In this document: one piece after another, positions 1 through 54,915 of the stretch
Layout: each line of letters starts with the position of its first letter
Position numbering within the stretch: the first letter of the stretch is position 1
NCBI GenBank assembly: GCA_006503475.1
Contig: RSEH01000227.1
Span: forward strand, 1 to 64,000
DNA: 64,000 bases
DNA from: Stentor roeselii
Lineage: Eukaryota; Ciliophora; Heterotrichea; Heterotrichida; Stentoridae
Direction of reading: 5' to 3'
Translations under genes and position numbers: made by a program
The notes under the pieces: model-generated
The model's database searches: none
What the model saw: the letters and a program-made list of their open reading frames with translations, nothing else
Told to the model about the DNA's origin: nothing

Positions 1-1846
1 AATGAATCATCCAGTTTAGTTGAGAGATCTGAGAGTGCTTTTACAGGAATACAGCCCATTTATTATTGACCTCATTACAATCACCGATTTAGCTTAGAAG
101 TCTCAATTGTAACCATAAATATAATACTTAATTATTTCTTTCTCGAACGAATACTTTACATAGGAAAATAGAAGAAAATCATTTTTATTAGGAAATTGAT
201 TTAGATGGAAAAAATTATTTAAAAATTTTAGTAAGCAGTGATTTTAAGAGTCGAATGTTTAGCAATTTCAGGCTGTATCTGGAAAATTTAGAGAAGTGAA
301 TGGGTTTTATGATGAGCCTTTTTTTATGTAATAAGTCCGAAAAATGATGAAAGCTCATAAATATGAAAAAAGAATAATCAATGAATCCCTACAGTGTGAC
401 TATTGATTAAGATAATCGAATTACACTCATTTGGGCTGCATCTGATGATAGAGCGATTTCTAAATCAATGTCCTTCAGGGTGGCCATTATCGCTAACCAT
501 AATTATTTCGATAAAGTTATGTAGTAAGAAAAAATGTTTAAATATTTCAATTAGATTACTATAAGACTTTTGATCAAAAATCAGAAAAACTTAGTAATTA
601 TCGATTTTTTTTTGATTCATAGATTTCGAACTTTTCACGAAGCTTAACCTTTAAACATTATCAAAAAAATTAGATTTTTTTATCAAATATACATAAATAC
701 AAATTAACAAATATTGTATTAGAGCGATTATATTCTTAAAAGGTGTATGAAAATATTTGGATTTGATATTGTTTCTCTCATTAGAATGATTATTCCAGAT
801 AACTTGCATTATTTAGGTATATGTATAATAAAATATGCTTTAATATTTCTGTATTTGTAAGAATTGTATACATATATGAGAATATTACTTTAGTAAAGTA
901 ATTTGAAGTTAAATGAATAAATAAACTAATTTCAAGACATATTTGTCTGTATATTTATTAGCATTTCGAGTACTTTAATTGTCGATGAATTGAAAATTCT
1001 TGTATTTATCTAAAATATATTTATATATAATGATGATACTAAGAAAGATTTTAGTCTCTTATTAATTAGAAGATTTAAAATTTCTTATAAATTATTTATG
1101 ATCCAGTTTTTAAATGGATCTCTGTTGAATTAAACAGAAAGACTTTTAGTCTCTTTTTCAATTTTAATGTACTAGGAGGCTCATTTGAATTCTAATCCAA
1201 CATTGAAGGAGGTATTATTATATCAATTTGATAATGAAATTTAATCACTCCAAGAGATAAATGTATTCAAACTAATTATATTGAAATTAAAGAAAATTTA
1301 TAGTTGATTTTATACCAAAATATAGACAATTTAGATATAATCGGCTTTCAAAATGCATTGCTCTAGATTTGTAGTAGCTAGCTCCACTAAAAACTACCGA
1401 ATATTTTATTTTTTATAATTTTAACTAATTCTCTCTTATATTTCGAGAATTATCTAAATTCTATCTATCAAAGCGATCCCAAAAATACTTTTCATATAAA
1501 CTTATCAATCTAAGCATCAATCACAAAGTATTATTTTCCAAATAAAAAACTCTAAAAAATACCTCAAAAATTTCCTTCTCATATAATAAATCTTAAACAA
1601 GTGACGAATTAAAAATCGAAAATTCGGCATTTAACTCAAAATAATCCCATAAAAAATTATTTTCGAAATATCAAGTTGCAAATCTTCCACTTGGTAAATA
1701 ATCAAAAGTTATTCTTAACATTATGCTATTTATCTAAATCGATTAAAGCTCGAATAATAGATGTTTAATGGATAGGAGAAAAATGGTTGAATTCAAACAA
1801 AATATCTAAAATTCAAAGACTTTGATAGAATTTAATAGTTTTTTTA
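1..1846. other. Gene-poor AT-rich stretch
   Basis: No credible coding region is visible. All six frames are broken by frequent stops and no conserved protein motif was recognised. I saw no tRNA-like or rRNA-like signal. It belongs to a 7.7-kb gene-poor block that is unusual beside the very compact remainder of the window. Confidence 0.6.
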
Positions 1847-2065
1847 TTACTCGGAAATTTCTAGTTCAGGTGGACATTCATAAATCACTTTGAGTCCTTT
1901 TCTAAAAAATTTCCTTCTAGAATTCATGATTTGAGTGTTTTGGCTGCTCTGATCTTCAGCTTTTGAAAGTCTTAATTTCCTTGATGTTCTCGAACTCTCA
2001 AATGATTGGATCAACTTGTATTCATCCTTTCTTTCTCTAATCCTTTTGGAAGAGACACAACCCAT
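1847..2065 (-). CDS. Small predicted dual-acylated protein, MGCVSSK N terminus
   Basis: 72 residues. The N terminus MGCVSSKR fits the classic signal for myristoylation at Gly2 (Ser at position 6, Lys at 7) and palmitoylation at Cys3, so a membrane-anchored protein is inferred. The body is short, basic and Ser-rich with no known domain. It has a clear paralog at 6583-6792 (69 residues): both start MGCV-x-SK and both end with KxLKVIYE followed by an acidic tail ending in Ile/Val-Ser plus one residue. This shared head and tail over otherwise diverged sequence is the main reason to believe it is a gene. The start is fixed by the acylation motif. The function is unknown. It sits alone in a gene-poor region. 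Confidence 0.7.
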   Translation of the reverse strand: MGCVSSKRIRERKDEYKLIQSFESSRTSRKLRLSKAEDQSSQNTQIMNSRRKFFRKGLKVIYECPPELEISE

Positions 2066-5000
2066 AAATATAAATTAAAGAATGAATATGATGATTTTTT
2101 GGTTGATTTTTTTAAAGTCTTATAGAAACTTAATTGTTACAAATTCTTCTCATATTTTTATCTTCCTTATGGAATAGAAAGTTTAAGATTCTATTTAAGG
2201 GTGAAAATGAATATTTCCTTTCGTTTTTATGTTTCAAGAACTCGAAAATGGAAAATAGTACCTGGCTATGTGTCTGGGAAAAATAGCTTTCAAACTAGAG
2301 AAATTGCTTAATTTTTAGCAAATTTATGTATTTTGAGTCAAATTTTAGAAGAAACCAGTACAGAAGTTTTGAAATGATTGGAAATCATTTCTTGACTTGT
2401 AGATATATTAAATGAAGGCTAAGATTCGCATAGGCTTAAACTGAAAGGTTTGCCTATTTGTTTGTTTGCCATTATTATTTTTCTAACTTATTACTTCGAA
2501 TATTTTGCTTTATTTATCACTCTATATATAAAAAATATTCTTGATTTTCTCGAAGTAAGTCAAATATTTAGTTGAGTAAAGAAGAAGTAAAATATTTAAT
2601 CTATCAAAATACCGAAAGTTAGAATTTATACTTAAATTTCAAATAGTTTTCTGAAACTTCTGGTTTCATTAGGAAGTCTGGTCGCCAATTAATTCGAATA
2701 GGTTTAAATTTTGATTGAATCGCATAATTTTTTTGAGTTTTTTCAAGGAAAGACCCTCTAAACCATGATGAAACCTCTGAACCATAATGGTACAGACCTA
2801 TAAACCATAATGAAGACAGTCCTAAAACCATATGAAGAAAGTCCATAAACCATAATGAAGACATCCTTATAAACTATAATGAAGCTTTAATACTTCCAAA
2901 ATTTTCTGAGTATTTTAATTATACTTACCTACACTATTCTCATACATCTACTATTTAATCTTCTATATAAACTAGAAAATGTTGAAATTCCATTTTAGGG
3001 AAAAATGTTTATTTTACTTTAGTTTTGATAAAATAGATAAGAACTAAGCAATGAGGTGTTAATCCAAGTTTTTTATCGGTGAAACATTAGTTTCAAGCTA
3101 AAAGTATCTGCTAAATTTTTCGCGGAATCTAATTTTTACATTCGAAGAAGATAGAAAAGAGTTTTAGTTTTATGTAAAAATTAATTTAAAGTTCTCGAAA
3201 CATAGGAAATTTAGGCTATCACTCTATTAGACTTAATGAAAGGATTATCATTTGCTATTCTAAATTATTTTCTAATTTAATACTCGTAATATCTGAAATA
3301 TTTGTATCTTATAAAATTTCTTTGGGAACCGATTGATTAATTTCGTATAGGTTGTTTGAAGTAATCATTATAGCATAATTCATGCAGCCAAGCATTACAA
3401 TTTGAGCATTTGAAACTAAATATATTAATATTTCGTAATCCTGCAAATTTGAAATTCTATCTTCATTCAATTTGAGTTTTGAATTGAATACTCATCATTT
3501 GAACTTTTTAACTTTACAAGTTTAAACTTGAAATATTTTCGGATATTTGGTTGCTTGATTTCTTATCTTTAATAAATTAAAAGAATAAATTTTATCTACC
3601 ATTTAATCAAATTACAAAGTAGAGTTTCCACAATTTCTTACCCGAATTCTAATTATTATAATATTTGATGATTTGATCAAATGTATTCATTCAATCTATT
3701 AAATTCCGATATGTTAATTTGGCAAACAAAACCTTTGTCCTTACCTTCTTCTATTCTTAAAATTACGTCAAATTTAGATGGGCTTTTACAATTCACAATT
3801 AACTATGAATAAATTTTGATTCCAAATCGCTAGTTATACACAATTATTAGATAATTACTGATATCCAATAAGTTTTTTCTATTATATTTTATGATTAATA
3901 ACTTTTATGAAATAGTCACATTTAATTGATCCCTTAATTCTGTAATTATAATAGTTATAATAGTTCTCGATTATATGAAAATATATCAAAATCTTTTATT
4001 TCTGAAATCTTCTGTTAGGAAAATATGAATATTACCAGCTTCGACTTTAGGTTTACTTGTGCCGCAAAGGTGCTAATATTTACATAAGACCTAGTTTACT
4101 TACACAAAGAAAAAATACTTAAGCTACATATATTTTGATTCATACGAAGATACCCTATTACAAAGCATCATCTCCATATAAGATCAACAATTTGTCTTAA
4201 AGAACTTGTTTCTAGAATTATATCTAAAGAGAGTAATTAATTTTTCAGAAAATGGAATATTGAAAATTTTGTATTTTTAGATATTCGCTTTAATACTAAA
4301 ATTTTTAATTGAAATAAATTGATTACCAGAAATATTATTTATCAGATTTGAGACGTTCCATGAGTTCCTTTATAAATTTGAATCAGCTTCTTATTGATTT
4401 CCATAAGAATTACTCAAGATGAACTTCAATTTTTCAATTGTCAAATCCTTTCAATACACATTTTTCCATAATAATGTTTTTTTCAGTCCTTAAGTCAGTT
4501 GCGAAGTTAGTCTTTAGTGATATCATCGATTAATTCGGGAGAAAAAATGAAGCATGAGAACTCGAAAGGATTAACTTATATGATAGTGAAATGTTGATCT
4601 TTATTACTTGAAAAGTTCTTAAGGAATATTTGTTTGAATACTAGTCCAAGTTATATAAATCAAGAAATATTAGTCGAAGAGATAATCCTCATGAAGATGC
4701 ATATAGAATATTTATGTTAAGTCATTCTTTGAATTACTTATTACCCTAGTTAACTATTAAATAAACGTAAATAAAAGAGACTAAATTAAAACTTTACTGA
4801 TAAAATCATCATTGAGATTTGAATTATTTGAAAAATATAAAGACTAAATTCTAAATAAATTTGTATCTATGACTTAATAAATAGAGTGTTCATGCTCAAC
4901 AGAGCACTCATTAATTACTTTAAGGTCACTTTTGACGTTTACTAATGATGTGATTAAATCGATTTTGTGGACTCTTTAATGTATAATGATCTTCCTGGAT

Positions 5001-6582
5001 ATTATTCCTTTTGATTAGATAAGATGCAGTCCTTCCTCGATGATTTTACTTGACAGCCCCTGAAGAAAAATACCTCATATATATTAGGTGTAAGCATTAA
5101 ATAAAAATATTTAAGATCTCTTCTACAAAGTTTAAAAATTTCTATTATAACTCCAGTCCCTGAAAAGTATAAATAAAAAAATAAACTATTGAAGTTCTGC
5201 CAAATCGTTTCTTAATTTGAAGAAAAACCTGATATTTTTTTAGCGTCAAATATAAAAGTACTTATCTTTTAATTAGTTTGGTTTATTTAATTTAGTTTTC
5301 AAGTCTATTTAGAAGAAAGATATAATAAAACTCATTGAAGTTCAATATAAAGTATCTTAAATGATTTTAAATCCATGTGAAGTAATTTAAATGCTGAGGT
5401 TCTGATATGAGTATATTTATTCTGGTATTTTTGCTCGATCATTTCTATCTAGACCATAATTATTAACCCAAATGATTACCTAAGCGAAAAATCAATTCTA
5501 TTAGTTCAGCCTATTGAAATTATATAAGGAAAGAATTTCCATTTTATCTAAATTGTATAAAATAGTAATCTCTGCAAGGCTTTGCTTGAGATGAATTAAA
5601 TCTTCTTCATTGAAATAATTATTATTGAATAGTTTAAATAACTATATCTACTAAATTTCTTATTATTTTGGATTTTTTGTAAGTAGAGGATTAACCAAGC
5701 TAAAAGAACTTTGAATAGTTCTTCGTTCCTGCAAAATCTTAAATAAAGAGAATTTTTTATTAGTAAATCTGACATATCATGTAGTCAGATAGATTATAAA
5801 CTAAAAGGTGTGCTGATTTAGCTAGATTGCAATATATAATTATTAATTTTCTTAGCCAATACTGAAATCCTCGCTTTTCATTTCAATCTATATGCAGCTT
5901 TTAAAGTAATCTAGATATTCACTAAAGAAACGTTGTCTTATTCATTGATATCTTTAGCTTAGTCATATGTATTCTATTAGATCAATCATTATAGCATTTT
6001 AGTTCTATTTGACTATGGAATCCAGCTGAGTGATTATTTTGAAAGAAATATGAAAAGCAAAATCATTCTATTCGTTCTATGTATTAAAATCATTCCTTTC
6101 ATCTAAGAAGAGCATGATATCTTATTTTCAAGTGATTTCTATACATAAGAGTTTCTAATTTGCAGATTTCCCAAAAACTAAACCAAATTCTTACTTTTAT
6201 TCTTATAATTTAGATTTAAACACCCTTTCTCATCTTATGCCGACTTATTCATACAGAGTAAGATCTCAAAGCATCTTTTAAAATTTTTAATCCTATCTTC
6301 GAAATAAAACCCCAACTCTATCAAATTCCGAAAAAATATCCAACATCAAAATATGAATAATATTAACTCATCTAAAGCCGGTAAAATAATTTTCTTCCAA
6401 TACAAAATGACTTTCTTAGCCAAAATCAACAGTAGCAAGAGTAATCTATTGATAAAATTGATTTCTCGCCCTCAGAATTTGAAAGTAAATACATTCTTTT
6501 GAATGGTTCAAAGAAAATGGTGAAAACCCAGCAAAAATGATTATCTAAAAGTTTTAAAAACTTAATTAATTTTTCAGTAAAA
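2066..6582. other. 4.5-kb gene-poor AT-rich stretch
   Basis: No reading frame here looks coding. The only sizeable one, on the minus strand at 2619-2864, is produced by a short tandem repeat (2759-2893). I see no conserved protein motif, RNA gene or transposon terminus. Whether it holds a long noncoding RNA cannot be told from sequence alone. Confidence 0.6.
2759..2893. repeat. Short tandem repeat, about 19-24 bp x 6
   Basis: Six imperfect copies of a unit with the core AACCATAATGAAGAC begin near 2761, 2780, 2803, 2826, 2848 and 2872. The spacing varies between 19 and 24 bp. The repeat creates an apparent minus-strand reading frame with recurrent SLWF, which I take as spurious because the period is not a steady multiple of three. 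Confidence 0.8.
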
Positions 6583-6792
6583 TTAAGCAGAGACCTCATA
6601 TTCAAGTGAGCTTTCATAAATCACTTTAAGGTCTTTCTTGTATTTTTTTACTTTTTGAAAAAATTTTAATGGAAGGTTGGGCTTGACTTGTCTGGACTCT
6701 CCTTTTGTGAATTGCTTTTTTGTTTGATCGTAACTACCAGATTCAAAAACTACTGTTTGTCCTGCGAATTTCTTGCTTGGAACGCACCCCAT
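6583..6792 (-). CDS. Small predicted dual-acylated protein, MGCVPSK N terminus
   Basis: 69 residues, paralog of the gene at 1847-2065. MGCVPSKK is a strong N-myristoylation plus palmitoylation signal. The middle is rich in Lys and Gln. The C-terminal KKDLKVIYE-x5-YEVSA matches KGLKVIYE-x5-LEISE of the paralog. No enzyme motif is present. Given a basic, acylated small protein, a peripheral membrane adaptor is possible but is inference only. A DHHC palmitoyltransferase that could act on such a substrate lies at 12540-13520, though nothing links them directly. Confidence 0.7.
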   Translation of the reverse strand: MGCVPSKKFAGQTVVFESGSYDQTKKQFTKGESRQVKPNLPLKFFQKVKKYKKDLKVIYESSLEYEVSA

Positions 6793-7702
6793 TAATAATT
6801 ACTTACAATATGATTTGTGATAATATGTTTATTAGACTGAAAAATGACTTCCAATACTTCAAATCAGATTTTTTTCAGCAAATTATTCAAATCGTCTTTA
6901 GATTGAAAAAAGAAAAGCAAGATAAGTTTTATTTGAATATTAATGATTTTTACAGGCTTTTTTAAATTCTTGAATAGGTAAAAAAATTTTGAATTTTGAC
7001 TTTGATGGAAACTTGAACTATTTTAAGGTTTTGGATTTAGACAAAAATGATAAAATTTAAGAAATCATCCAAAATTAAAGGATTGAGAACTTGAAATTTA
7101 GAAATGTGGTTTGGATCATTCTGGTTTGGTATAAGAGATTTGTTTGGGTTTTATGTTGAAATCGGCATGAAGATAATGATGATTAGCTTTATCTTTACCC
7201 TGACCAGTTTTTTCAAAGCTAACCATATTTATTTGGTTCACTTTCTTGGAGTTGTAAACATATTCAATTATACATATATAATCTTTATGGTTTTTATAAA
7301 GTTCTCCTCTAATACAGAAATTTAATTTCCATAGAGAAGGTTTTAATTACTTTAAAGTCTTCATTCGTTAATAATAATATTCTATTCTGTGATAAGACAA
7401 TAAAAATATCTATATAAGATTTATTTATTTCTAATTTTTCATCATCAGTCCTGAACACTAAATTCAAAGTTCCTAAAGAATATCATCAGAAGTTAAATAA
7501 AATAGAACTCAGCAGCTCCAACCTTGACAAGCATTTAAATAATAACATTACAAACTAATTCACTAATCAAAACAAACCACAAGTACTCCAAAATCCCTAA
7601 AATTCCTAAATTAACCCATTTCAAAAAAAATCCTAAAAATATTCAAAGTTCTACAATTTTGAATTCCTTCAAAATCACCTCCATCTTCCATTTAATATAA
7701 TC
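6793..7702. other. Intergenic stretch, no convincing gene
   Basis: A 73-codon hydrophobic frame at 7104-7325 (+) is the only candidate. It lacks homologous motifs and is composed of AT-driven Phe, Ile and Met, so it is not called. The segment 7560-7690 is C-rich on the plus strand and forms the 3' flank of the glutamate dehydrogenase gene. Confidence 0.5.
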
Positions 7703-9172
7703 TTATAAACCTATCGTCCCTTCAAGAGAAGACTCCTGAACCCGTTTCAACGAGTTAACATAAGCCGCGATTCTCAAATTAACCCCAAGTCTCTGACTAG
7801 TTTCTTTAGTTTCACTGACAGCTTCAGTCATAATCTGTTCAAGTCCAGAATAAACAAGATTAAGTTCAGAAGCGCCTTCCGAGTATTCCACTTTCTTAAG
7901 TCCATCAAGTGCGAGTTGTGGGTTGATTCCATTAATCTTGCAAATAATCTCAATCAAATTTCTATTCCTCTTCGCTCCCCACCTTCTAGTAAGAAGTCCA
8001 GGTTTGATATGTCCAAGATTTTTGACATACTCGAAATAAGACACCGTGACACCTCCAGCATTCATAAGTAAATCAGGAAGTACTAAAACTCCATTCTTTT
8101 CCAAAATCTCTTCTCCTAAAGGCGTGGTAGGTCCATTGGCGCCTTCAGCGACGACTTTGCATTTGAGTAGTCCAGCATTGCCTCCATTGATCGACCGTTC
8201 AACCGCTGCAGGGATGACAACATCGCATTCTCTTGAAAAGACTTGGTTCTTGTCTTGGACAAATTCAGCTTTCGGGTACCCAGCGAAAGACTTCCGTTGT
8301 TTTAAAAAGGTTTTTAAGTCCTCGACGTCAAGTCCGTTTTCGTTGAAGACACAGCCGTTGTGCTCGATGACTCCTAAAATTTTTGCCTTTTCTTTTGTTA
8401 AAAAATGAGCCGCCCAGTAACCGACATTGCCGAAACCTTGGATTATGAAGGACTTTCCCTCGATACCTGTGGAAAGACCTGCCTTTTCCATGTAGTACTT
8501 GTCGTTCATGAACTCTCGGACACCATAAAAAACACCTAGTCCTGTTGACTCGGCTCTGCCTGGAATGCCACCCAGCTCGATGGGCTTTCCTGTCGTAGTC
8601 GCCATACCGTTTAGGTTCTTTGGGTTGTGTGAGACGAAGGTGTCCATCATCCAAGCCATTTCTAACTCACCAGTTCCCAGATCAGGGCCTGGCACATCAA
8701 TTGCAGGACTCAAAAACCCTTTTTTCCCTAATTCCAAGGCATATCTTCTAGTCAATCTTTCACGCTCGTCTTGATTTAACGACTTCGGGTCGACTTCGAT
8801 TCCACCTTTCGCCCCTCCAAACGGAAGATTCACACAAGCGCATTTTAAAGTCATCAGAAAAGCAAGAGCTTCAATCTCAGGAAGGTCAACGTTGGGTGAA
8901 TATCGAGTCCCCCCCTTACACGGAAGTTTATGATGAGAATGTTGAGCTCGATATGCCTTGTGGAAGGTGATTGACCCATCATCTCTTGACAAAGGGATGG
9001 TCATTTGAAGAACAGTGTCCGTATTTTTGATTTGTTCTAACATCTCAGTTGACATCCCTGTGTATTTCGAAGCCTTATCAAAAAATATATTCACCATCTG
9101 TAAGAAGTTAGGCTCATTTGCAGCCTCCTGACTGAAGCGTCTTCGAAGGGAACTGAACATTTTTATAACCAC
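7703..9172 (-). CDS. Glutamate dehydrogenase (NAD(P)+), probably mitochondrial
   Basis: 489 residues, close to the usual length of mitochondrial hexameric GDH. It interconverts glutamate and 2-oxoglutarate plus ammonia. Family signatures are clear: the substrate-binding motif LPFGGAKGG near residue 120, DVPGPDLGTGELEMAWMMD near 165, the Rossmann glycine motif GFGNVGYWAA near 250, and VAEGANGPTTPLGEEIL plus PDLLMNAGGVTVSYFE in the C-terminal half. The N terminus (MFSSLRRRFSQ after an upstream Met) is Arg/Ser-rich and looks like a mitochondrial presequence; translation may start at the first Met or at Met5. The stop is TAA. The upstream flank (9173-9450) is almost free of C on the plus strand, i.e. 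G-poor on the sense strand. Confidence 0.97.
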   Translation of the reverse strand: MVIKMFSSLRRRFSQEAANEPNFLQMVNIFFDKASKYTGMSTEMLEQIKNTDTVLQMTIPLSRDDGSITFHKAYRAQHSHHKLPCKGGTRYSPNVDLPEIEALAFLMTLKCACVNLPFGGAKGGIEVDPKSLNQDERERLTRRYALELGKKGFLSPAIDVPGPDLGTGELEMAWMMDTFVSHNPKNLNGMATTTGKPIELGGIPGRAESTGLGVFYGVREFMNDKYYMEKAGLSTGIEGKSFIIQGFGNVGYWAAHFLTKEKAKILGVIEHNGCVFNENGLDVEDLKTFLKQRKSFAGYPKAEFVQDKNQVFSRECDVVIPAAVERSINGGNAGLLKCKVVAEGANGPTTPLGEEILEKNGVLVLPDLLMNAGGVTVSYFEYVKNLGHIKPGLLTRRWGAKRNRNLIEIICKINGINPQLALDGLKKVEYSEGASELNLVYSGLEQIMTEAVSETKETSQRLGVNLRIAAYVNSLKRVQESSLEGTIGL

Positions 9173-11132: not shown

Positions 11133-12532
11133 ATGAGTAAATCCAACCAAATCCCTCGAATTCCAAGCGAATCACATCAAGTCCGTCCAATTCAAGACTA
11201 CCTTCTTTCAAGATCCAGATCCAAGTCAAAAAAGCCTAAAAACCCAAGCGAATCCCTTTACAACGACGCAAAATCCCGCAGTCTCCGAAACAAAAGCCTC
11301 CAAAAATCAGTAAATTCAATCAGATCGAAGAAGAGATCCAAAAAAATGCAAACCAGCGAAAGTTGATCCAAAAGTCTCAGCAACTTTTCACATCAAAGCG
11401 AGTAAAAGAGTTAGAAGAAGTGATTCAAGCCTTTGAAGAACCTTCAGGGTTCATATCAAAACGTTCAATGTGCCAAGTGCTCGAGTCTCTTTCTTTGATC
11501 CTTCCAGTAAAAACAATTCAGGAGTCTTATGTGTTTAAAACGATTCGGGCCAAAGTGAAGAATTCAATTGAAGAAGAGTCTTTGATGAGTTTACTTTGGT
11601 CTTTTCTTAGTCCTCCAAATGATGACTATATTATCAAAGAATTGCTTTATGATTTTCTAGCTATCTTGATGGATAGGACTTGTGATGTGGCTTCTAGGGT
11701 TGATGATTTGAAAAGACTTGAAAAATGCATCGGGTCTGTTAATGACTCGTCACCTAAGGACCGCGGGGACCATATGAAGCTTATCAAAGAGTTCGAAAAT
11801 CTAATGGATCGCAGGAAAGTCCTTGGATTTCGCAGGAAAGAAGACTGCCCATCTGAAAAAATGTTCTCGTTTCAGCCTGAAACTAATAAAGATACTTCTA
11901 ATACAGATCGAAAAACTGGACTTGAAAGACTTGAAGCTTTGTATCATGACTTTCAAGAGAAAGAAGATAAAATCTTGAGTTCGAAACTTAATGCTTTGGA
12001 AGCTGAACTTAGTGAGTGCACTTTTACACCTTGTATATTAGAGAAGAAATTTGAGAAGAGAGAAAATTGGGTTAAAGAGAAGGAAAGGGAACCCAGTTAT
12101 CAGGAAGCTTTAGAGGCTCAAGAAAGAAAAGAGTGCACCTTCCACCCTTCCATAATAAAAAATCGACCAGATCTTGAAACCGGTATAGAAAAACCACGAG
12201 GATTCGAAAAATTTGTAGAAATGCAAAGAAAAGCTCAAATCGAAAAATTAGAGAAAATTGAACTCGAAAGCACCCCAAGAGGTGAAAATTATGAAAAATT
12301 CAAAAATCTAAAGCCTTGTCCGCCAAGTTTCCTCTCCCGACAAAAAGAAGAACGTCAAATAAAAATGTACATCGACGTAAACCTAGGCCAAGGGCGCAAA
12401 GGTAAAATAGCAATCCGGGAGCAAGACGATCCTGACTCCCTCGCATCAAACTTCTGTAAAATCTTCCATTTAAGCCAAGACTACGAAATCAGCCTATCCC
12501 AAGAAATCAAAGACCAATTAAAAGACTTATAA
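11133..12532 (+). CDS. Two-exon structural protein with ECTF-P motifs, function unknown
   Basis: Two overlapping frames (start 11133, or less likely 11103; stop 12532) join into one protein if a 14-nt GT-AG segment at 11310-11323 is removed. The join reads LQKS then IEEEIQKNANQRK, continuing the helical character. Without it, exon 1 ends at a TGA at 11364. Exon 2 has two related motifs, ECTFTP and ECTFHPSI, typical of a ciliate/protist family of cytoskeletal coiled-coil proteins. The last about 60 residues (VNLGQGRKGKIAIREQDDP and following) resemble a small ubiquitin-like or PB1-like fold that recurs at the C terminus of protist coiled-coil proteins; this is a weak assignment. It ends 7 bp from the stop of the convergent DHHC gene. 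Confidence 0.8.
11310..11323 (+). other. Candidate 14-nt spliceosomal intron
   Basis: The sequence GTAAATTCAATCAG begins with GTAA and ends with CAG. Removal restores the reading frame between the two halves of the gene at 11133-12532. Its last seven bases (CAATCAG) fit the pattern YA(A/C)NYAG shared by the other introns in this window. A 1-bp assembly deletion in a 15-nt intron is the main alternative. Confidence 0.6.
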
Positions 12533-13530: not shown

Positions 13531-16277
13531 ATGAATTTAGTTAAAATGAACTCAAGAAATATCAACTTGCCAACTAACACCCTGGTGAGACATTCTTCTC
13601 AATCAGGACTATCAACAAAGGTAAAGCCTGCAAGTTCTAACCAGTCCTGCAAGAAACTGAGTAATTTAAGCAGTTCGACTAAAGTGAGTCATCAAATTCA
13701 AAATGAACTTTCAGTTCACGTCTTACTCACCCCGAAGCAGTCATCAACTCCCAGTGAAAGCAAGTTTGTGATGAAGGAAAGTCCGATTGAACTACTCACT
13801 CACATCACTTCTCCTAAAAAACTTCCAACAAAACTGGCAAGTCTTAGTCAATTCGAACTCACTCAAGAACTATCCGGGTTAGGCACACCTGCGACTAGAA
13901 AAGATGTGGAAGAGTTAAAAGGATGGCTTAATACAATGCTTTTAAAAGCCATGGACTTTAGTAATAGTCCTGAAAGTTTATATGAAACGACAAATTTAAT
14001 ATATAAAGTCTGCTTTCAAGAAATCATCAGACAAGTCAAGGTTCAATGTCGTGAACGAGGAGATCTTATTAAACTCATTTGGGAAACTTATCAACAACTT
14101 TTTTTACAAGCTTTGAAATTAACACAAGCCAAACAAGACTTCCTCGAATCTCAACACTTGAAAAATTTAGTCGATCTTCAACAGTCAAATGAAAAACAAG
14201 TAAATGATCTTTTAAAAATCATCGGCGAGACTAAAAAGGAAAATACTCGACTTACTCGAGATTTAAAGCAAAAAGAAGAAGCTTATGAGCAAAAGTTCCA
14301 TAAAGAAATGAAGATGTTGCAGGTGTTAGACGTTTTTAAACAGCAATACGCTCGTATCAAGGAAGAGCTGTTGACTGTGAAAGAAGAATACCGAATCACG
14401 AAGATTAAATTTGAAAATCTTCAAAATATTTCAAATAAAGCTGAACAAAAATTCAAGAAAAAGTCAATTCATGTGATTCAACAGGTCATTGCAAAAGAAC
14501 CTCTCATGCAGTATAAAGGCAATGAAGATGATCAACAGGTGATTAAAAGTCATCTTCTCAATGGTAAAGCTAATTAGAACAACTACTTCAAGACTACTTC
14601 ACACGTCCTGACTTCAAAGACCAGGAAACTTCCACCGCAACTCAATCCTTCAGCAACTCCTCAACAAGCACCTCAGTTGAAGACCTCTGCGGTGACAGTA
14701 TCGGAGTAAAAATGCGTAAAAAGCGCCTTTCTAAAATTTCAGTAACCAGTCATATTTCAGTTTCACCTTCCAATGATTCAATAGTAGAGCTAAACAACAT
14801 TTTAGACAAAAACGAGTTTTTAGAGTCAGAATTAAAGAAAAAACATGTTTTCGTTAAAAAAATGCTTCAAAACATGAACCAGGTAGTTATTACTTAGAAC
14901 ATCAACTACGAAATGACCCGGCAAGAACTTCCTCATAACAATATCTTAGATGCAGTTTCTTCAGGCATCAGTCGAGCCCTTACTTTAATTTCAGCTTCGC
15001 CTTTAGAAGCCATGAAAGAAATCCCTGACCACAGCGAAACTGAAGAAAAAGCGAAAAAACTCTTAATGAACATCATCGGCAGTGAAGAAGAAAAAATGAT
15101 TTACTCAGAACATGAAATCGTTGCTTCTATGATGATAAGAAAAATAGGAATGACTCCAGCTTATAAACTTCGACATGCAATGTTTAAAAAAATGCTTTTG
15201 AAGTTAATTTCTGTGTTTTATGATGAAAAAAACAAGGAACCCTCTTCGAAGATAGAATACGGGGTTTATGTCTACTCGTGTCTTATGAAAAAGTACATGA
15301 TGAAAAAAGCTGCTCAGAATAGATTCAAACATCTTTTGTCCAGTTGTGTCAAATATAAAAACATCAACCGTGTCAGGATCTTTGGAAGGTTTATAGGTCT
15401 TTATGGCGCTTTTGACTTAAATGACTTAAACTTTTACCTCACAAATGCAGCGAATTTAAAAGCAGGTCTCACTGGAAAGTTGTTTTTAAACCTGGATAAC
15501 GCCGAACAACACTTTACTCAATATGGCCGTTGTTTAGAATGCTTGAAATTCGTGTCTAAATCTTTTCCTCCAGCTGAGGTGCAAGACCTTCACCGAAAGC
15601 TTGACATGATGAAAACAGTGGAAAAAACTTCTAGAATCACAGTAGTCGACATTGACGAATTCCTTGAAATAGTGATTGAAAAGCTTCATTCTCATAAAAA
15701 TGAAAGTTATACTTTTCTTAAATATATTTATGACTCTGCCGATGTAATTTTTAAACAGCTTAATGAAGATGGGTATCTTCAACATCGAGAATTTTCTATT
15801 CTTGTTAGGAACTTGTCAAGCGTTTCAGCTGATGAAGGGAAAAAACTATTTGAAGCCTTTGCTGAGAATTTTTTGTCGGAAAATGATGCTGAAGTTAGAG
15901 CGATTTCTTTGGAAAATTTTGTGGAACTTAACTCGACTCATTTGATTTTTCACCCTGAGAAGGTTTTTCAGTTCACTGGAGTGAAAAGTGATGCTGAAGC
16001 TGAAGAGAAACTTGAAAGTCTTCATGATGAAAATGAGTTGGAGGTCAGGTTGAATGAGATTCAGTGGAGACTTAGTGAAAGTAAGGAACTTGGAGAATAT
16101 CAGGAAGAATTTTCTAATTTGCTTGAGACTTTAAGAGTGAAGATTTATAGTAAGACTAGCAATCCTAGGTCTGTATGGCTTTGCTTGAGACTTTTGGAGG
16201 AGGAGTCGAAGATTTTGTTGATAAATGACAGGCTGAATGAGTTACTTCCAAAATTCGCTCAAACTATCCTGTATTAA
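13531..16277 (+). CDS. Large three-exon helical protein, function unknown
   Basis: Three frames join through two tiny introns (14564-14577 and 14883-14897) into one protein of about 905 residues. The start is the ATG at 13531 or 13546 (MNSRNINLP). Exon 1 has a Ser-rich disordered N terminus, then helical coiled coil (QKEEAYEQKFHKEMK). Exon 2 is short and Ser/Thr-rich. Exon 3 is a globular helical region of about 455 residues; a segment with DEFLEIVIEKL and a following FKQLNEDGYLQHREF could be degenerate EF-hands. No known enzyme motif was found. Reading exon 2 in the post-splice frame gives EQLLQDYFTRPDFKDQETS, which is plausible coding sequence. The next gene begins 24 bp downstream on the same strand. 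Confidence 0.8.
14564..14577 (+). other. Candidate 14-nt spliceosomal intron
   Basis: The sequence GTAAAGCTAATTAG starts GTAA and ends TAATTAG. Reading through it gives an immediate TAG. Removing exactly 14 nt (not 15) shifts to a frame that stays open through 14578-14711 and into the next exon. The unshifted frame stops at 14706. Confidence 0.65.
14883..14897 (+). other. 15-nt spliceosomal intron
   Basis: The sequence GTAGTTATTACTTAG ends in an in-frame TAG. Its removal joins MNQ to NINYEMTRQELP in the same frame, linking exon 2 and exon 3. The length of 15 nt is the modal intron length known for heterotrich ciliates. Confidence 0.85.
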
Positions 16278-27051: not shown

Positions 27052-29805
27052 TTAATTTAGTTTATCTGTATCCATTTTTTCTAAATACTTTTTGAGTTTC
27101 CAATATACTCCATCCATCAGGCTACCTTTAAACACCTTGGCGAATTCATTAACAGTTATCTTGAAAAACTGCTGAATTGAGATAAGTCTTGCAGAAAATT
27201 TCATAACATTTACGATAATTCTGCTAATTGCATTGTTGGAATGTTTTTTACCATAAACATTTTTTACTACCTTCAACAAAGCCAGAAATCTAGAAGCCTG
27301 CAAATTAATAAGTTTCCTAAGCGCCAATTCCAAGTGAAAATCATCAGCAAGAGCTCTAAACCTAAGCAAGTTAATAGTCAAATTTGTCATTTTGATCAAC
27401 TTATTTTTCAAATCCGTGAAATTAACCGAAGAATTAACAAAATCAAAAGAAATCTGTTTTTTCGCATTTTCACTAACAAAAGGCACAACCTGCAAGTCTT
27501 GATTGATTCCAAGTCCAACCCACCCTTCAATATCCTTATTCTGAGTCCAAGGTCCAGGAACATTGCTTAAAATTTTACTGCTAGCAAAATGAAAATTATG
27601 ACTATGAGCAAGATTTTCCATCTGATCAAAAGTATCTTTAATAATTTCCGGAGAATTCGAAAGAATCAAGTAGTCATCATGAAGCCTAACAACCAACAAC
27701 AGTTCATTTTCATACTTTTTCTTAAGTTCAGGAACAAGTTTTTCCTCAATATTCGAATAATACAAATTTGAAAGTAAAGGCGAGCAAGGCAAGCCCTGAG
27801 GTACTCCCTTAAGTCCTTTAAAGAACTGTCTATTAAACTTAATCACATTTCCCTGTAACACCCTACTGACCATCCTCAACTTTTCCTCAGTAGCGAAAGT
27901 TGACCTTGCAGTTAAAACATTGATTGAATAAGGTCGAAAAGAAAGATCAGTGAAAAAAGGCGACTGTGACTCAGAAATAGCAAGTTTTTTATATTTCATC
28001 TTGAATAAATTCTGCATGTTTCCTAGTCCTCGATGAAGTTGTCTAGGCAGCAGCTGAATAAATTTATAATAAGCAGAAACAACAGGTACATCAAGTTGAT
28101 CTATCATCGGGATCAACTGTTCAGTGTCAACCGAGTCAAAGGCTTTCGCGATGTCGACACTCATGTAAAAAAGCTCAGGTTTTCCCTTTCCTGCCCATTT
28201 TTCAGAGAATCCAGCGATTTTCGAGATAAGAGACGGGTAGTCCAAACTCATCACTTTTTCAGGGTCGTTTAAACAAATACGAAGAATTTGAGGCACTCCT
28301 GCTATTAAGTTATTTCCAGAAAGACGTACATTTCCTAAAGAGATTTTTGACTTAAAATGCATTATTGGGCGAAAATCACTTGTTTTTGGCTGGATTCTTA
28401 ACTTTGCATGGGGAAAACGAGTGAAATCTTCCCATCTTTGCTTTTCTTCTCGTGTTAAGAGGAAGAAGTAGTCATTGGATTCAAGAGTTTTTCGAACTTT
28501 TGAAGTTATTAAGGACCAGATAGGCTTTCGGTAGAAGTAAAGGACTGTGTTGTCGTGTTGCTTCTCTGTTATGTAAAAGGAGATTTGAAGAAGGGGAACT
28601 ATGAAATCGTTGAAGATGAATAAAATCGTTTTACCGATTAGGAGATCTCGAGCTTTACCTGTTATTTCTTTTATCCAGGAGATGTTTCCCATACGGAACC
28701 TGCTGCAGACTGCTGCGCAGCTGAACTTTTCCCAGACTCCTAACTTTAGAAACATTAAAACTCCTTTGAAAAATTCTTTTAGGTTTCTTTTACCGCCGAG
28801 TAAGTCGGTTGGGATTACTTTTTTTAGGATTGTTATGAGAAAACTGGTCACTTGAGATAATGACGAATTCGAGTTAAACAATTTCTCAAAAGAAAAATTT
28901 TCCTGAGTATTCAAATTGAAATCACTCTTGAATTCACTTCCAAGCGGACAATGTTTTTTAATATGAGCTCCAAGATTAAGTCTCTGATACTTATACGCAA
29001 ACTTTCCAAAAAACAATGAAAGTTGCCCCAAATACTTTCCCTTACTTCTACTTCCCAAGACCTTCTTCGCAATCATTTCACCTGCCTGTGCAGGTTTCAA
29101 ATTAAGTAAATTTTTGCTCGGTAATTTAAACTTCCTACGAATCAAAGTATTATAAAGCATTTTTACCTTGTTAATCAAAGGAAGTTTAGAAAAAACATCT
29201 TGTTTTTCAATGATTTTCGTATTATTTTCCTTAAACTCTTTCATAGTTCTGCAAATTTTCGCATTTTTCACTTTGGTGAGCTTCGGCTTCAAGAACTTAG
29301 CAATGTTGATACCGATGACCTGAATAAGAGCTTCGGCTTTTCTAACAAAGACAGACAAGTTTTCTCCTTCAATAAGATGTTCAATAAGTCCTTGTCCAAC
29401 GTATTTGTAAAGATTTTCCCATTCAGGAGTCTTTAAAGTAAGACTGACCATCGGGTTCTTCTTAAGAGTGCCGCTTGACTTGTAGTAACAATACCCGAAG
29501 GTCTGAACATGATCCTCTAGTCGAAGATTGTTCATGTTTTCATTGTTTTTTTTGGAAAAGAGACGAATTATTGTGTTGTCAACTAAGGCACAGTAAGAGT
29601 ATGATGTACGAATCTCGAGATTTTGTGGAAAAATGTAATCGTTGTGAAGGCAGACTAATGTTTCTTCTAAAAATAAATGGAAATCTGAAGACATTGGTGT
29701 GTCGTTTAGAGTCTCGTGGGTTGTTAAGAGAGATATGTATTCCCCCAGTGAAAGGACTGATTTGAAGTTTGTGCAGGATTTCAGAAGGGTTAGAAGAACC
29801 TCCAT
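27052..29805 (-). CDS. TERT: Telomerase reverse transcriptase, catalytic subunit
   Basis: 917 residues, smaller than the Tetrahymena protein (about 1100). The T motif, unique to telomerases, is present (SFYITEKQHDNTVLYFYRKP). A TEN-like N-terminal domain is suggested by EWENLYKYVGQGLIEHLIEG and VIGINI near residue 160. The RT domain has motif A SVDIAKAFDSVD with catalytic Asp551, motif B' GVPQGLPCSPLLSNLYY, motif C VRLHDDYLIL with Asp710 and Asp711, and motif E-like GWVGLGINQ. A His precedes the DD pair where Tetrahymena has Thr. The enzyme adds telomeric repeats from an RNA template, essential for the many macronuclear chromosome ends of ciliates. It is uninterrupted by introns. The upstream flank is C-free on the plus strand. 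Confidence 0.95.
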   Translation of the reverse strand: MEVLLTLLKSCTNFKSVLSLGEYISLLTTHETLNDTPMSSDFHLFLEETLVCLHNDYIFPQNLEIRTSYSYCALVDNTIIRLFSKKNNENMNNLRLEDHVQTFGYCYYKSSGTLKKNPMVSLTLKTPEWENLYKYVGQGLIEHLIEGENLSVFVRKAEALIQVIGINIAKFLKPKLTKVKNAKICRTMKEFKENNTKIIEKQDVFSKLPLINKVKMLYNTLIRRKFKLPSKNLLNLKPAQAGEMIAKKVLGSRSKGKYLGQLSLFFGKFAYKYQRLNLGAHIKKHCPLGSEFKSDFNLNTQENFSFEKLFNSNSSLSQVTSFLITILKKVIPTDLLGGKRNLKEFFKGVLMFLKLGVWEKFSCAAVCSRFRMGNISWIKEITGKARDLLIGKTILFIFNDFIVPLLQISFYITEKQHDNTVLYFYRKPIWSLITSKVRKTLESNDYFFLLTREEKQRWEDFTRFPHAKLRIQPKTSDFRPIMHFKSKISLGNVRLSGNNLIAGVPQILRICLNDPEKVMSLDYPSLISKIAGFSEKWAGKGKPELFYMSVDIAKAFDSVDTEQLIPMIDQLDVPVVSAYYKFIQLLPRQLHRGLGNMQNLFKMKYKKLAISESQSPFFTDLSFRPYSINVLTARSTFATEEKLRMVSRVLQGNVIKFNRQFFKGLKGVPQGLPCSPLLSNLYYSNIEEKLVPELKKKYENELLLVVRLHDDYLILSNSPEIIKDTFDQMENLAHSHNFHFASSKILSNVPGPWTQNKDIEGWVGLGINQDLQVVPFVSENAKKQISFDFVNSSVNFTDLKNKLIKMTNLTINLLRFRALADDFHLELALRKLINLQASRFLALLKVVKNVYGKKHSNNAISRIIVNVMKFSARLISIQQFFKITVNEFAKVFKGSLMDGVYWKLKKYLEKMDTDKLN

Positions 29806-35619: not shown

Positions 35620-36522
35620 TTATTTTTTCTCAATCGGAGGACCCACCTCATAAGTCCCTGGTCCAGGCACTGTTTTTCCAAGTCGAATAATCTCATCAAG
35701 ATATCTTTTACTCTTCGAAACAGGTGCTTTTCCCGACTTAGCAAGTTTTTTCGCAACTCCTCCAAGAGACATATTAAAAAACACATCAGAATACTGCCCA
35801 ACACCCGGCAAGTTGCTTCTACTCGTCTTCCCTTTCAAGTCCTTCCCCTTTGGCGACTTGGCTTTAGGAACACTGAACTTATAAGGACTTGGCAAAGTGA
35901 AATTTTTAGCTTCCAAATATTTTTCATAACACCCTGGCCCTATCTTTTCCTTTTCTTTCTTCTTCTCATCTTTCGGCTTGATCCAAAGCAAGCCTGTGCT
36001 TCGAGACTTGATCGGTTTCGGGTCGTATTTACCTGGAGCCGGGTTTTCCAGACTCATGGCTTCGACCGTGTTAAGAAAAGTGTCACGAATTCGATTACTG
36101 CTTAAAAATCACCTTTGGTTAGTGGAAGCTGAAGGCTTGTTTTTTGGAGGGTCTTTGAAGTAGCTGCAGGGACCTGGAGTGTTTTTCGCTTTTTTCATCA
36201 CTTCGTCGATTATTGTCGTTTTGGTTCCTTTTTTTAAGATTAGTCCACCTTTTGAAAGCCAGGCCGACTCGAAGTAAGTTTTTGCGTCGGGAGAGTGAGT
36301 TGCTGGGTCAGGCCATTTTTCACGCTTTTGGGCCATGGAAAAAGCGTCTTTTCGTTTTTCTTTTGGGAAGAGAAAAGGCTTTCGGATGTATTGGATTGTT
36401 TTAGGAACGTTGTAACCGTCGATTCCCCATTCTTCTCGACGGCCACGGGAGATCTCGTATAATTCGCGCACTGAGTAACTTGGACGGAGACCTGGAGAGG
36501 TGTAAGGAAGGTTGTCGGACAT
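35620..36522 (-). CDS. STPGR (SHIPPO-repeat) protein, two exons
   Basis: Two minus-strand frames (36522-36109 and 36057-35620) join when a 15-nt intron at 36098-36112 is removed, giving about 295 residues; the joined reading is STNQSNRIRDTFLNTVEA. SHIPPO/STPGR motifs recur: NTPGPCSYFKD, NPAPGKYDPKP, IGPGCYEKYLEA, LPGVGQYSDVF and VPGPGTYEVGPP. Proteins of this class bind along the inside of axonemal or cortical microtubules. The N terminus (LPYTSPGLRPSYSVRELYE) is conserved-looking but was not assigned. The gene ends 7 bp from a convergent neighbour. Confidence 0.88.
36098..36112 (-). other. 15-nt spliceosomal intron
   Basis: On the minus strand the sequence is GTGATTTTTAAGCAG. Reading through gives TGA right after CAAAGG. 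Splicing joins two STPGR-containing frames. The donor is GTGA rather than GTAA; the 3' end TAAGCAG fits the other introns. Confidence 0.85.
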
Positions 36523-37773: not shown

Positions 37774-40700
37774 ATGAGAAGTGCCAGACAAGAAGCTCTG
37801 AATCGACTCAAGCAAGCCAAAACAGGTGAAACATCCCGAGTCGATCAATACAAAGTAAAAGAATCAGACGACTTGATCATCAACATGGACGAGTCAGAGT
37901 ACAAAAAACATGTGCAACAAAGGAAAAAAGAACAGTTCATAGTCGACGACCTCGGCATCGGCTACGACGACGAAGGCGAATTCGACTTGGAAAACGATTC
38001 TGAAGAATTTGAAGAACAAGAACCTGAACCTGTCGAACAAAAAGCAAACCCGTCAATAAAAGGCTTCTTAAAAAATGAAGTCATTAAAAAGCCACGACTT
38101 TTACCAACTGCCCAGAAGGAAATTAGAGAAAATATGAGAAAAGACTTTTTAAGTATGCTGGATGATGAGGATTTTGATGCTGAAAAATTGATGAAAGTCA
38201 CGGCGGAGCCTATTAAAAAACAAGTGACTATTAAAAAAGGTGAGTCAGATGAAAGCTTCAAGAAAAACTATGATATTACAATTGCGAGTCTCAAAAAAAA
38301 TATGCCTGAAAAAGTTGAAATTAAAAATCCTTCAAGTGAGAATTTAAAAAGAGCTGCTCCGGGGTACCCACATCTTTCAAATAATGAAGTAGAAGATAAA
38401 TCTCATGATAATTCAACTGCTGCTTCAGTGAAATTTGAAAACCCGTTTAGTTCAAAAGGGAAGATTTCGAGAAATTCAGTCTCAGCAGTCACGAATCAAT
38501 CAGAATCATTGAAAGTTTCAGAGCTTGCTTCTCCTGCATCATTTCAAGATAAAATCCAAGAGTTACCTCTACCTGAGCCAACCCCTGACCTTCCTATGGA
38601 GTTGGATATACAGGATTCGAATCTAGAGGAAAAGTTAGAAAGCATGGAAATCGAAACCTCAAACATCGAGACGCTAGCAATCGAGAACAACCCAGAGATC
38701 CCTCTTGAAAACGGTATTCTTCGAATGTTCTGGATCGATGCAATCGAAGACAAAGAACTCATGCCCGGAAAGATATTTTTATTTGGAAAAGTTTATTTAC
38801 CACAATCCAACCGGTTCACAGGTGTATGTGTTTTAATATCAGAAGTGAAAAGACGTTTATTCGTCCTACCACGTCCTGAATTTCAAGAAAACTTCGAAGA
38901 AATCCACTCAGAACTCGAAGCAGCTCGAAAATCCAGCAGAATCCGGAAATGGGCAATAGACATAAAACCAATGAAATACGCTTTTGAAGTACCAGAAGTG
39001 CCACCTGAAGCCAACTACATTGAAATCGAGTACTCCTCACTTTTTCCGCCTTTAATATCCAAGCCCTTTAGAACAGTGCAGCACATTTTTAACGCTAACT
39101 GCAGTTTAGTTGAAAACCTTTTAATTCACAAGAAGATGAAAGGCCCTTGTTGGCTGTTAATCAAAAATGCTTCTCAACCGAAACAAAAGATCTCAAATTG
39201 CAGAATCGAACTGGTCATCAACTCTTACGACGACCTCGAAGTCGAAGTCTTGGGGTCCAACAACCCCCCGCCTCCCCTCTCAATAATTGCATTATCTTTA
39301 AAAACAGTCCAAAGCAAAAAAGGCGAGACTGAAATTTTCGCGATCGGTTTAAAAGTACATCAAAAAGTAGACCTTCACTCAGCAACAGAAGACATTCCTC
39401 AACAAATGGCGAGTTTTTCTATAATTAATTCAGGAAAAGATGAAAAAACTAATAATTTTGAAACTGTTCGAAATGAAAAAGTTTTAATTGAAAGGTTTCT
39501 AGACCGGTTATCAATGATTGACCCAGATATTTTAATAGCGCATGAAATGTTTTCAGACTTCAGCGAAAAACTACTGACCCGGCTTCTTCATCTTCGCCCT
39601 TCGAACCTTTCAGAACTGGGAAGAATCTTCAGAAAAAAGCCTCCAATTTCAAGAAAAGAAGAACTTTTCACTGGGAATTGGCAGTTTCGAGGACTTACTG
39701 CAGGGCGATTGTTGTTGGACACTGAGATGTCCTCGAAAGAGTTAAGTCGTGAAAAGAACTACAGCTTGAAAGACCTAAGTAAGAACTGGTTCAATGTCGA
39801 CCTTCCAGAAATCGACTTCGACCCGAATGAACTTTTTAAAGATTCTCTAAATGTCAAGAAACTTTCAGTCATTCTACAAGCAGAGGTAAACGCCGTGTAT
39901 TGTATCATCAAACATTTAAATATCATTCCACTTTCAAGAGAACTTACAAATATCGCTGGAAATCTCTGGATTCGTTCTCTTCAGAATCAGCGAGCAGAGA
40001 GAAATGAAATGCTTTTAATTCATGAGTTCTTTCGAAGAGGATTCGTTTATCCTGATAGAAGTGAATTCAAGTTTGAAGAAAAAGGTGAAAAGAAAAAGAA
40101 TCAGTTCTTGGGAGGGAAGGTGCTTGACCCGGTTTCAGGACTTTACGACAAGTTCGTCATTTTGCTTGATTTTAACAGTCTTTACCCGAGTATTATCCGT
40201 GAATACAACATTTGCTTCACCACTGTCCAGCGGCGGAAGGAAGCAAAAGAAAAGGACAGCAACGACCCGGGCACTATCATAGAAGGGTCTTCGCCAGGAG
40301 TCCTTCCAGACATCATCACGACACTAGTTAATCAAAGGCGCCAGGTGAAAAACGCCATGAAAGGTGAGCAGAACAAAAACCGTCTTAAACAACTGGACAT
40401 CAGACAAACAGCATTAAAACTCACTGCGAATTCAATGTACGGGTGCCTGGGGTTCAAAGCTTCTCGGTTCTACGCCAGAGCCATCGCCGCGCTTATTACT
40501 CAAATAGGAAGAAATACACTTGAAAGAACTGTTAAACTTGCAAAGGACTCCTTAAGTCTTGAAGTCATTTATGGTGATACTGATTCTATCATGATTCATA
40601 CAGGACTTGATGATATTCAGGCTGCTGTTAAAAAAGGTGAAGAACTCAAACATCTGGTTAATAAACAGTTCAAAAAACTTGAAATTGAACTTGATGGAGT

Positions 40701-53577: not shown

Positions 53578-54915
53578 CACTTACTATCAAAGTTGCAGAC
53601 CTTGACATTCCTGATATGGCTTCAACTGATGCTGATACTACAGGGATTGGCTTTACTTCTGTGAGAATCAATTATGACTAAGGTGATGACATTACATGGA
53701 TTTTATCTCAAAAAGTTAGGCAAGTTCTTGGTCAATAGACTCAAAGTACTGATGATCTGACTATAAGGTGGTAACCAAATCGCAGGAGTAGATAATTCTG
53801 CTTACACTATCGTGATGACTCAGCCTGGATTTACCCAGATTTGAAAGGAAGTGTTGATGTTTTGTGACTTGGTGTTTGATTTGCCTTGAATTATACAACG
53901 AGACATTGGTATCATATGACAATTTAATTTCTAACACCTACAAATTAGGCTCATCTGATTACGAACAATTGGACATTGAAGACTACCTCAAAGACTACGA
54001 ATCAAGAGTTGATGACGCTTGGAAAGCATACGAAACTTATAAAGAGGTCTCTATTGAACTCCTGAAAATCGCCAGGTCAGTCTTCTTGATCAGGCAGTCC
54101 CTTATCGAACACACTGATGATCAGTCCCTCTACGACTTTACAGGACTATTCGCTTTCGAAAGCGAATCCTCTATCATCGTCTATGCGACAACTACTTCTG
54201 CTGCGATATCCCCTCATCGAGCTCAACATGACTACCGCAGCTGCCTTGAAACCCTACTCTTTGAGTTTCTGGAGATCTTGATTCAGCGAAGTTTATTATT
54301 GAACTAAGCAAACTGTTGAATATCAAAACCCAACAGATTCTTTTCGATGATAGTTCAAGAAGAAGGTTTTCAGATGCAACAGTTACCTTGATCAGTGGAG
54401 TAAGTGACCAGAAGTCATCAGAGCAAAAAGTTAGAGATGTGGGAATAAGCACTATTCAAAGCACCTTGGGAGTCACTGACTTAGAACTTTCCGCGAGTGA
54501 GTCTGCTGAATGGGACTATGGTCCAGTTTGAGATGAGTTAGATGACAGTGTCGCTACTTTCAACTATACAACATCTGCGGACGGGTATATTTATTGTTTG
54601 TTGAAGTCAACTCGACTCTTGTCTCAGAGTAAAGCAATGATAACATCAGCTTCGGACTTGATAGAAATGGAGATGATAGTGATGATCCTTACAGTGATGA
54701 TGCTGTTGCTGGGGAAAACATGCAGATCATCTTCAACGATACTGGGGTTGGGTATGGAATTTATGGTATTTCTTGTGTCTCTCTTGTGATGACTATCCTT
54801 TGACTCTCACGTGCTCGTCGGTCTCTAATTATACTCTTGATTATAGTGAATCGAGTATCAGTGCTGCTGTCGCCCTGGTCGTCGCTGTTGCGGCTTACTT
54901 ATTAATCTATATAAT
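53578..54915 (+). pseudogene. Decayed partial copy of the giant surface-protein gene
   Basis: Several plus-strand frames match the intact giant protein encoded at 56572-62766 (-). The first part (LTIKVADLDIPDMAST, VDNSAYTIV, DSAWIYPDLKGS) matches residues about 955-1030. It then jumps to a part (TYKLGSSDYEQLDIEDYLKD, LKIARSVFLIRQSL) matching residues about 1712-1800, and continues (DATVTLISGVSD, SAEWDYGPV) to the C-terminal hydrophobic tail (AAVALVVAVAAYLLI). About 690 residues are missing between the two parts and the frame is broken by several stops and frameshifts. The copy is inverted relative to the intact gene, 1.65 kb from it. This is a host gene duplicate. Confidence 0.88.

Follow-up and report, generated by a model that had tools for sequence, protein, structure and literature searches.

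A probable 14-nt spliceosomal intron in an axonemal-dynein-light-chain-like gene points to a minority class of 14-nt introns in a ciliate with mostly 15-nt introns

We analysed the first 64,000 nt of contig C147 (hereafter the window), which belongs to a 44.39 Mb genome of 522 contigs. Standard stop codons were assumed throughout, and TGA ends 5 of the 32 window ORFs of at least 150 codons. Positions 1-8000 are AT-rich (25-27% G+C); a 23-bp tandem repeat occupies 2780-2884, and no ORF of at least 150 codons is found until 7703. Further along lie a telomerase-like gene (27055-29805, minus strand; Telomerase_RBD + RVT_1) and a DNA polymerase alpha-like gene (37774-41769, plus strand), each a single ORF in the scanned frame. 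An Rfam search of the 64-kb window returned no match.

The gene of interest here starts at ATG 13531 on the plus strand and has four putative exons. Exon 1 (13531-14563) is open in frame 1 and contains a Pfam match to Ax_dynein_light (PF10211, E=5e-10), by which we describe the gene as axonemal-dynein-light-chain-like. It is followed by a 14-nt segment, GTAAAGCTAATTAG (14564-14577), a sequence that occurs exactly once in the 44.4 Mb genome, then by exon 2 (14578-14882), which is open in frame 0, begins with EQLLQDYFTRPDFKD after a split GAA codon, and is conserved with three paralogs. Intron 2, GTAGTTATTACTTAG (14883-14897), is 15 nt long, contains an in-frame TAG, and was placed by frame and by the gene model. 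Exon 3 (14898-15743) is identified by its matches to the paralogs; between 14898 and 16274 the window shares 44% identity with the paralog on contig C148 (E=1.2e-104), covering 455 of 459 residues. Intron 3, GTAATTTTTAAACAG (15744-15758), also 15 nt, is easy to overlook because it holds no in-frame stop. It was placed from the paralog alignment, where five surplus residues relative to three paralogs appear immediately before LNEDGYLQ, and 15-nt introns likewise precede LNxDG codons at loci L004 and L006. Exon 4 (15759-16277) is an open frame with a terminal TAA.

A reading of the sequence alone had proposed that 14564-14577 is an intron one base below the known 15-nt class. The exon 1 frame runs into a TAG at 14575-14577, while frame 0 is blocked by a TAA at 14571-14573 and is open beyond it; the length of any removed segment therefore has to equal 2 mod 3, and both stops have to be dealt with. 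Within 14401-14880 we found seven GT..AG segments no longer than 100 nt that join the frames, with lengths of 14, 29, 29, 44, 56, 71 and 86 nt. The 14-nt segment is the shortest of these, and it alone has a start and an end like those of the paralog introns. It begins with GT and ends with AG, as a U2-type GT-AG intron does, and departs from heterotrich introns in being neither 15 nor 16 nt long; removal of 15 or 16 nt would break the frame. Two details of the sequence-only reading needed correction. The unshifted frame does reach a TAA, which lies at 14707-14709 rather than at 14706, and the downstream frame is indeed opened by removal of 14 nt, though it extends past the proposed 14711 to 14882, where intron 2 starts next. 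A gene model in which introns could be 11-40 nt long selected a 29-nt option, 14549-14577, in place of the 14-nt segment. Only when restricted to lengths of 11-22 nt did the modelling select 14 nt.

Used as queries against this genome, exons 1 and 3 recovered close relatives on contigs C148, C208, C133, C153 and C205. We compared intron position and phase across the first four of these. In the copies on C148, C208 and C133 an intron interrupts the codon that the 14-nt segment interrupts, in the same phase (phase 1), and each of these introns is exactly 15 nt long (GTAAAAAAAATTTAG, GTAGAAAATAAACAG and GTAAGTTTTAAGCAG), with an in-frame TAA inside GTAGAAAATAAACAG and GTAAGTTTTAAGCAG. Once the 14 nt are removed, no gap is needed at the junction to align the window protein (...SHLLN-EQLLQDYFTRPDFKD...) with one paralog (...NIKF-EKELNEAFREPDFKD...) or with either of the other two. 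The C153 copy reads through both intron sites without an intron, and is therefore neutral on intron length. These comparisons bear out the proposal of an intron with an in-frame TAG at 14564-14577, and we conclude, from sequence comparison, that the segment is very probably a genuine spliceosomal intron.

The paralogs also speak to two other ways of reading the locus. The 29-nt intron at 14549-14577, an example of a longer removal, links the same frames and is what the free-length model chose. Set against it, the junction indicated by the paralogs is 14563/14578, the residues SHLLN would be lost, and its start, GTCATC, is unlike the GTA or GTG of the 23 introns listed below; a longer intron of this kind is thus very improbable. 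It is harder still to believe that the segment is not spliced at all and that the frame change reflects ribosomal frameshifting or a broken gene. A ribosomal shift upstream of 14575 could get to frame 0, but this would not account for an intron at the identical codon in three paralogs, two of which carry an in-frame TAA inside it, nor would a shift or a broken gene be expected with a downstream frame that is conserved with the C148 paralog across 455 of 459 residues.

The second intron of the paralogs has a peculiarity of its own. In the copies on C148, C208 and C133 (L003 2548-2562, L005 2542-2556 and L007 2542-2556), a 15-nt GT..AG segment is followed by an extra G, so that 16 nt have to go if exon 3 is to stay in its conserved frame, with the removed segment either ending in AGG or starting one base before the GT. 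The window copy, unlike these three, needs a clean 15-nt removal at this site. One idea is that the paralogs use a non-AG 3' site set by its distance from the branch point.

We compared the 14-nt segment with a list of 23 15-nt introns, of which 17 are rows from the model run restricted to 11-22 nt and six were added by hand. That run gave 19 15-nt rows, and the two that start with GTT (L026 and L080 +6795) were discarded as implausible. Rows of 11-13, 16-19 and 22 nt, as well as a 14-nt row at 54621, were left uncounted and taken to be re-placed 15-nt introns or noise. A 15-nt intron of a minus-strand gene in the window, GTGATTTTTAAGCAG (36098-36112), whose removal takes out an in-frame TGA, was placed by the model as 12 nt in the same frame. 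An A is located 5 nt before the 3' end in 21 of the 23 15-nt introns and in 3 of 3 14-nt introns. At 14564-14577 the order is GTAA, four more bases, an A at position 9 and a YAG end, so that the presumed branch A is followed by a 5-nt tail, with the spacing of the heterotrich class. Relative to the 15-nt introns of the paralogs, the base that is absent belongs to the stretch from the 5' splice site to the branch A, and the 3' spacing is retained. The initial comparison of the end TAATTAG with those of the nearby 15-nt introns was right about the pattern, since TANNYAG is shared, and wrong about the letters, which differ (TACTTAG at 14883-14897, TAAACAG at 15744-15758).

The same signature also weighs on a further explanation, namely that the segment is a leftover DNA element (an internal eliminated sequence) and not an RNA intron. 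The genome appears to resemble the macronuclear type of ciliates, which speaks for a residual element of this sort, but the GT-AG ends, the A at fixed spacing and the introns of the paralogs are all consistent with RNA splicing, and we consider an eliminated sequence extremely unlikely.

Two further 14-nt candidates were found individually. Within the window, GTAAATTCAATCAG (11310-11323, plus strand) joins frame 0 to frame 2 in a gene at 11133-12532, for which ATG 11103 is also in frame. The model picks the 14-nt option here, and the alternative linking GT..AG segments are all at least 26 nt long. Because no close paralog was found against which to test it, it is coding statistics that argue for this candidate. 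The other, GTAAAGGTAAACAG, lies in a kinesin motor domain on contig C220, which becomes continuous once the 14 nt are removed. The Pfam kinesin domain scores 88.7 bits (E=4.7e-25) in the spliced C220 piece, compared with 67.1 bits when the downstream part is taken by itself, and Pfam finds nothing in the unspliced frame. In an alignment of the spliced piece with KIF13B, no gap occurs over the last 12 residues ahead of the junction and the first 9 beyond it. That 14-nt introns occur independently elsewhere in the genome, together with the alignment of the spliced window protein to its paralogs, upholds the proposed length of one base below the 15-nt class.

To assess how far such introns recur, we used a 14-nt consensus motif, GTAANNNTAANYAG, which has 273 matches genome-wide. 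Sixty of the 273 were tested, being the first 60 of 100 sites listed, each with 160 nt of flank per side. For every site, a coding model trained on longer sequences scored all upstream and downstream frames. The best open model was removal of 14 nt at 22 of the 60 sites, unspliced at 4, the control (third) shift at 2, and none at 32. The corresponding values for 1576 GT..AG 14-mers outside the consensus were 18, 548, 29 and 981, so that 14-nt removal is preferred in 22/60 vs 18/1576 (Fisher p=2.7e-23, odds ratio 50). Inside the 60, the 22 sites for 14-nt removal against 2 for the control shift give p=3.6e-5. When the read-through check was omitted, scoring of the first 40 of these 60 sites gave 12 for 14-nt removal, 3 in frame and 0 for the control shift. 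Some of the 22 may be false, given that the baseline predicts about 0.7 such cases and the in-sample control shift about 2. Consensus-like 13-, 16- and 17-mers in the fetched sequence linked frames in 0 of 8, 0 of 4 and 0 of 6 cases.

A Pfam scan covered 18 of the 22 spliced pieces, with L095, L109, L135 and L137 left out. Matches span the junction in six of the 18. Three of these are above Pfam's cut-off (RRM_1 in L093, 1.3e-13; CDC50 in L099, 6.1e-24; Ank in L132, 4.3e-5) and three are below it (60KD_IMP in L105, 2.1e-4; MFS_1 in L120, 3.5e-6; Mem_trans in L133, 7.7e-6). OXA1L aligns with the L105 piece without a gap at the junction. For L099 the best PDB alignment starts at the junction and extends over the downstream side, and for L093 PDB alignments show a short variable loop directly before the junction. 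Weak junction-spanning matches in L128 (EF-hand) and L102 (Ndc80) were excluded from the six, and in L088, L141 and L087 the Pfam matches are confined to one side. The remaining scanned pieces (L119, L139, L144, L121, L140, L130 and L103; 7 of 18) have no Pfam family match.

These results are relevant to whether the 14-nt segment could be a 15-nt intron from which one base was lost in assembly, for instance in its AAA run. Two observations favour a lost base. The three paralogs carry 15 nt at the site, and the genome offers no second copy of the window gene as an independent check, since the search for one found only a 70% match to the C148 paralog. On the other side, 22 of 60 consensus 14-mers genome-wide act as frame-linking introns, the kinesin and 11310 cases were reached by other routes, and breaks of the frame in coding sequence occur at no comparable rate. 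Over 117,080 coding bases of modelled complete genes, a total drawn from partly overlapping loci of at least 3 kb, the gene model reported six frame breaks; three of the six fall in one paralog family near intron 2, and three lie a few bases from an ATG. Because the 14-nt event recurs and frame breaks are few, a missing base is improbable. We instead regard it as highly likely that 14564-14577 is a functional 14-nt GT-AG intron, removed by an ordinary U2-type spliceosome in a ciliate with mostly 15-nt introns, and that it is part of a recurring 14-nt minority class.

Several counts indicate that this class is small. Under a looser consensus, about 290 kb of sequence contained 7 matches at 13 nt, 7 at 14 nt, 30 at 15 nt, 3 at 16 nt and 7 at 17 nt. 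There is thus no bulk excess at 14 nt in this sequence, where 7 matches equal the number at 13 and at 17 and compare with 30 at 15. Genome-wide, a 17-nt control with the same stop frames has 202 matches, so that the 273 matches of the 14-nt motif are a modest excess (p=0.0013). The reversed patterns, with 428 and 437 matches, are commoner than both, and the reversed control is therefore not neutral.

We also examined conserved protein families, scoring 135 of 1346 candidates for Pkinase, 122 of 167 for kinesin, 17 of 17 for TCP1, 108 of 108 for TTL (106 matches) and 19 of 19 for HSP70. The resulting tables consist mainly of full-length matches and are therefore biased against split genes. In the TTL, HSP70 and TCP1 tables, in which short fragments were passed over, we saw no two matches separated by a frame change, and none of 12 fetched TTL loci had a frame-shifting intron. 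Of 24 N-terminally truncated kinesin matches counted in the table, we fetched 20 and inspected them by eye; these held one 14-nt intron (L052, the C220 case), one of 16 nt (L064) and one of 15 nt (L048), and no frame change was seen in the other 17. Together, the family tables and the bulk counts fit a minority class of 14-nt introns, not a dominant one. The 16-nt kinesin intron at L064 (C514:101252-101752, minus strand), GTAAAAAATAGTTCAG, has its likely branch A 6 nt before its 3' end, which sets it apart from the 14-nt introns and from most of the 15-nt ones. The families themselves are large, with at least 122 kinesin and at least 106 TTL matches genome-wide, as is plausible for a large ciliated cell.

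Extrapolating 22/60 to all 273 matches, motif GTAANNNTAANYAG alone would account for about 100 14-nt introns. The 11310 candidate lies outside this motif, which suggests that there are further 14-nt introns that the motif misses. We therefore think it likely that this ciliate removes at least 100 introns of 14 nt, the shortest spliceosomal class known, with a 9-nt loop, the branch-to-3' distance fixed and the 5' side one base shorter. In the first step of splicing, G1 would be joined to A9, closing a 9-nt lariat circle and leaving a 5-nt tail, and the 3' site would then be used at a fixed distance from the branch point. A retained copy (3n+2 in length, with an in-frame TAG) would halt translation at once, and the unspliced message could then be readily discarded.

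Tiny introns are described in other organisms, and the 15-nt introns here suggest that the host is a heterotrich. In the available text on Stentor coeruleus, 8806 annotated introns are 15 nt (92.81%) or 16 nt (7.19%) long, and most introns have their branch A at position 10 of 15 or position 11 of 16 (PMC9505925). The introns studied here have in common with these the GT-AG ends, the AT-richness, a presumed branch A that usually lies 5 nt before the 3' end, and a prevalence of genes with 0-1 intron; they differ in including a 14-nt class, one base shorter on the 5' side, where the S. coeruleus introns as described are of 15 and 16 nt only (PMC9505925). The 15-nt Stentor introns are described as forming a 10-nt circle, and the proposed 9-nt circle would be tighter by one base. 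For heterotrichs, about 95% of introns are given as 15 bp and the remainder as 16 bp (PMC11441545), and Blepharisma introns as predominantly 15 and 16 bp (PMC9942806). Blepharisma stoltei shares tiny introns of near-fixed length, but the available text of that report mentions no 14-bp class, and UGA encodes Trp there whereas standard stops are assumed here (PMC9942806). Mikrocytids have introns of 16-17 nt, for which the 15-16 bp introns of heterotrichs are named as the only match; theirs is a similarly narrow range at the lower limit, in an unrelated lineage and 2-3 nt longer (PMC10245619). Elsewhere, the 15-nt Stentor intron serves as the shortest used for comparison (PMC12316389). Our literature search found no relevant report of 14-nt introns, with most subscription journals outside its reach. 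Judged by its sequences, the 14-nt class thus appears to be a new form of tiny heterotrich intron, one nucleotide shorter than the shortest class in the literature found.

Minimum intron length probes how sharply the spliceosome bends RNA, and 14-nt introns, if true, would leave the splicing machinery less room than any class before them. A class in which the 3' spacing is kept and the 5' side shortened would also tell a rigid distance from a flexible one. On the practical side, annotation pipelines limited to introns of 15-16 nt would render genes of this kind as broken frames in heterotrich-like genomes.
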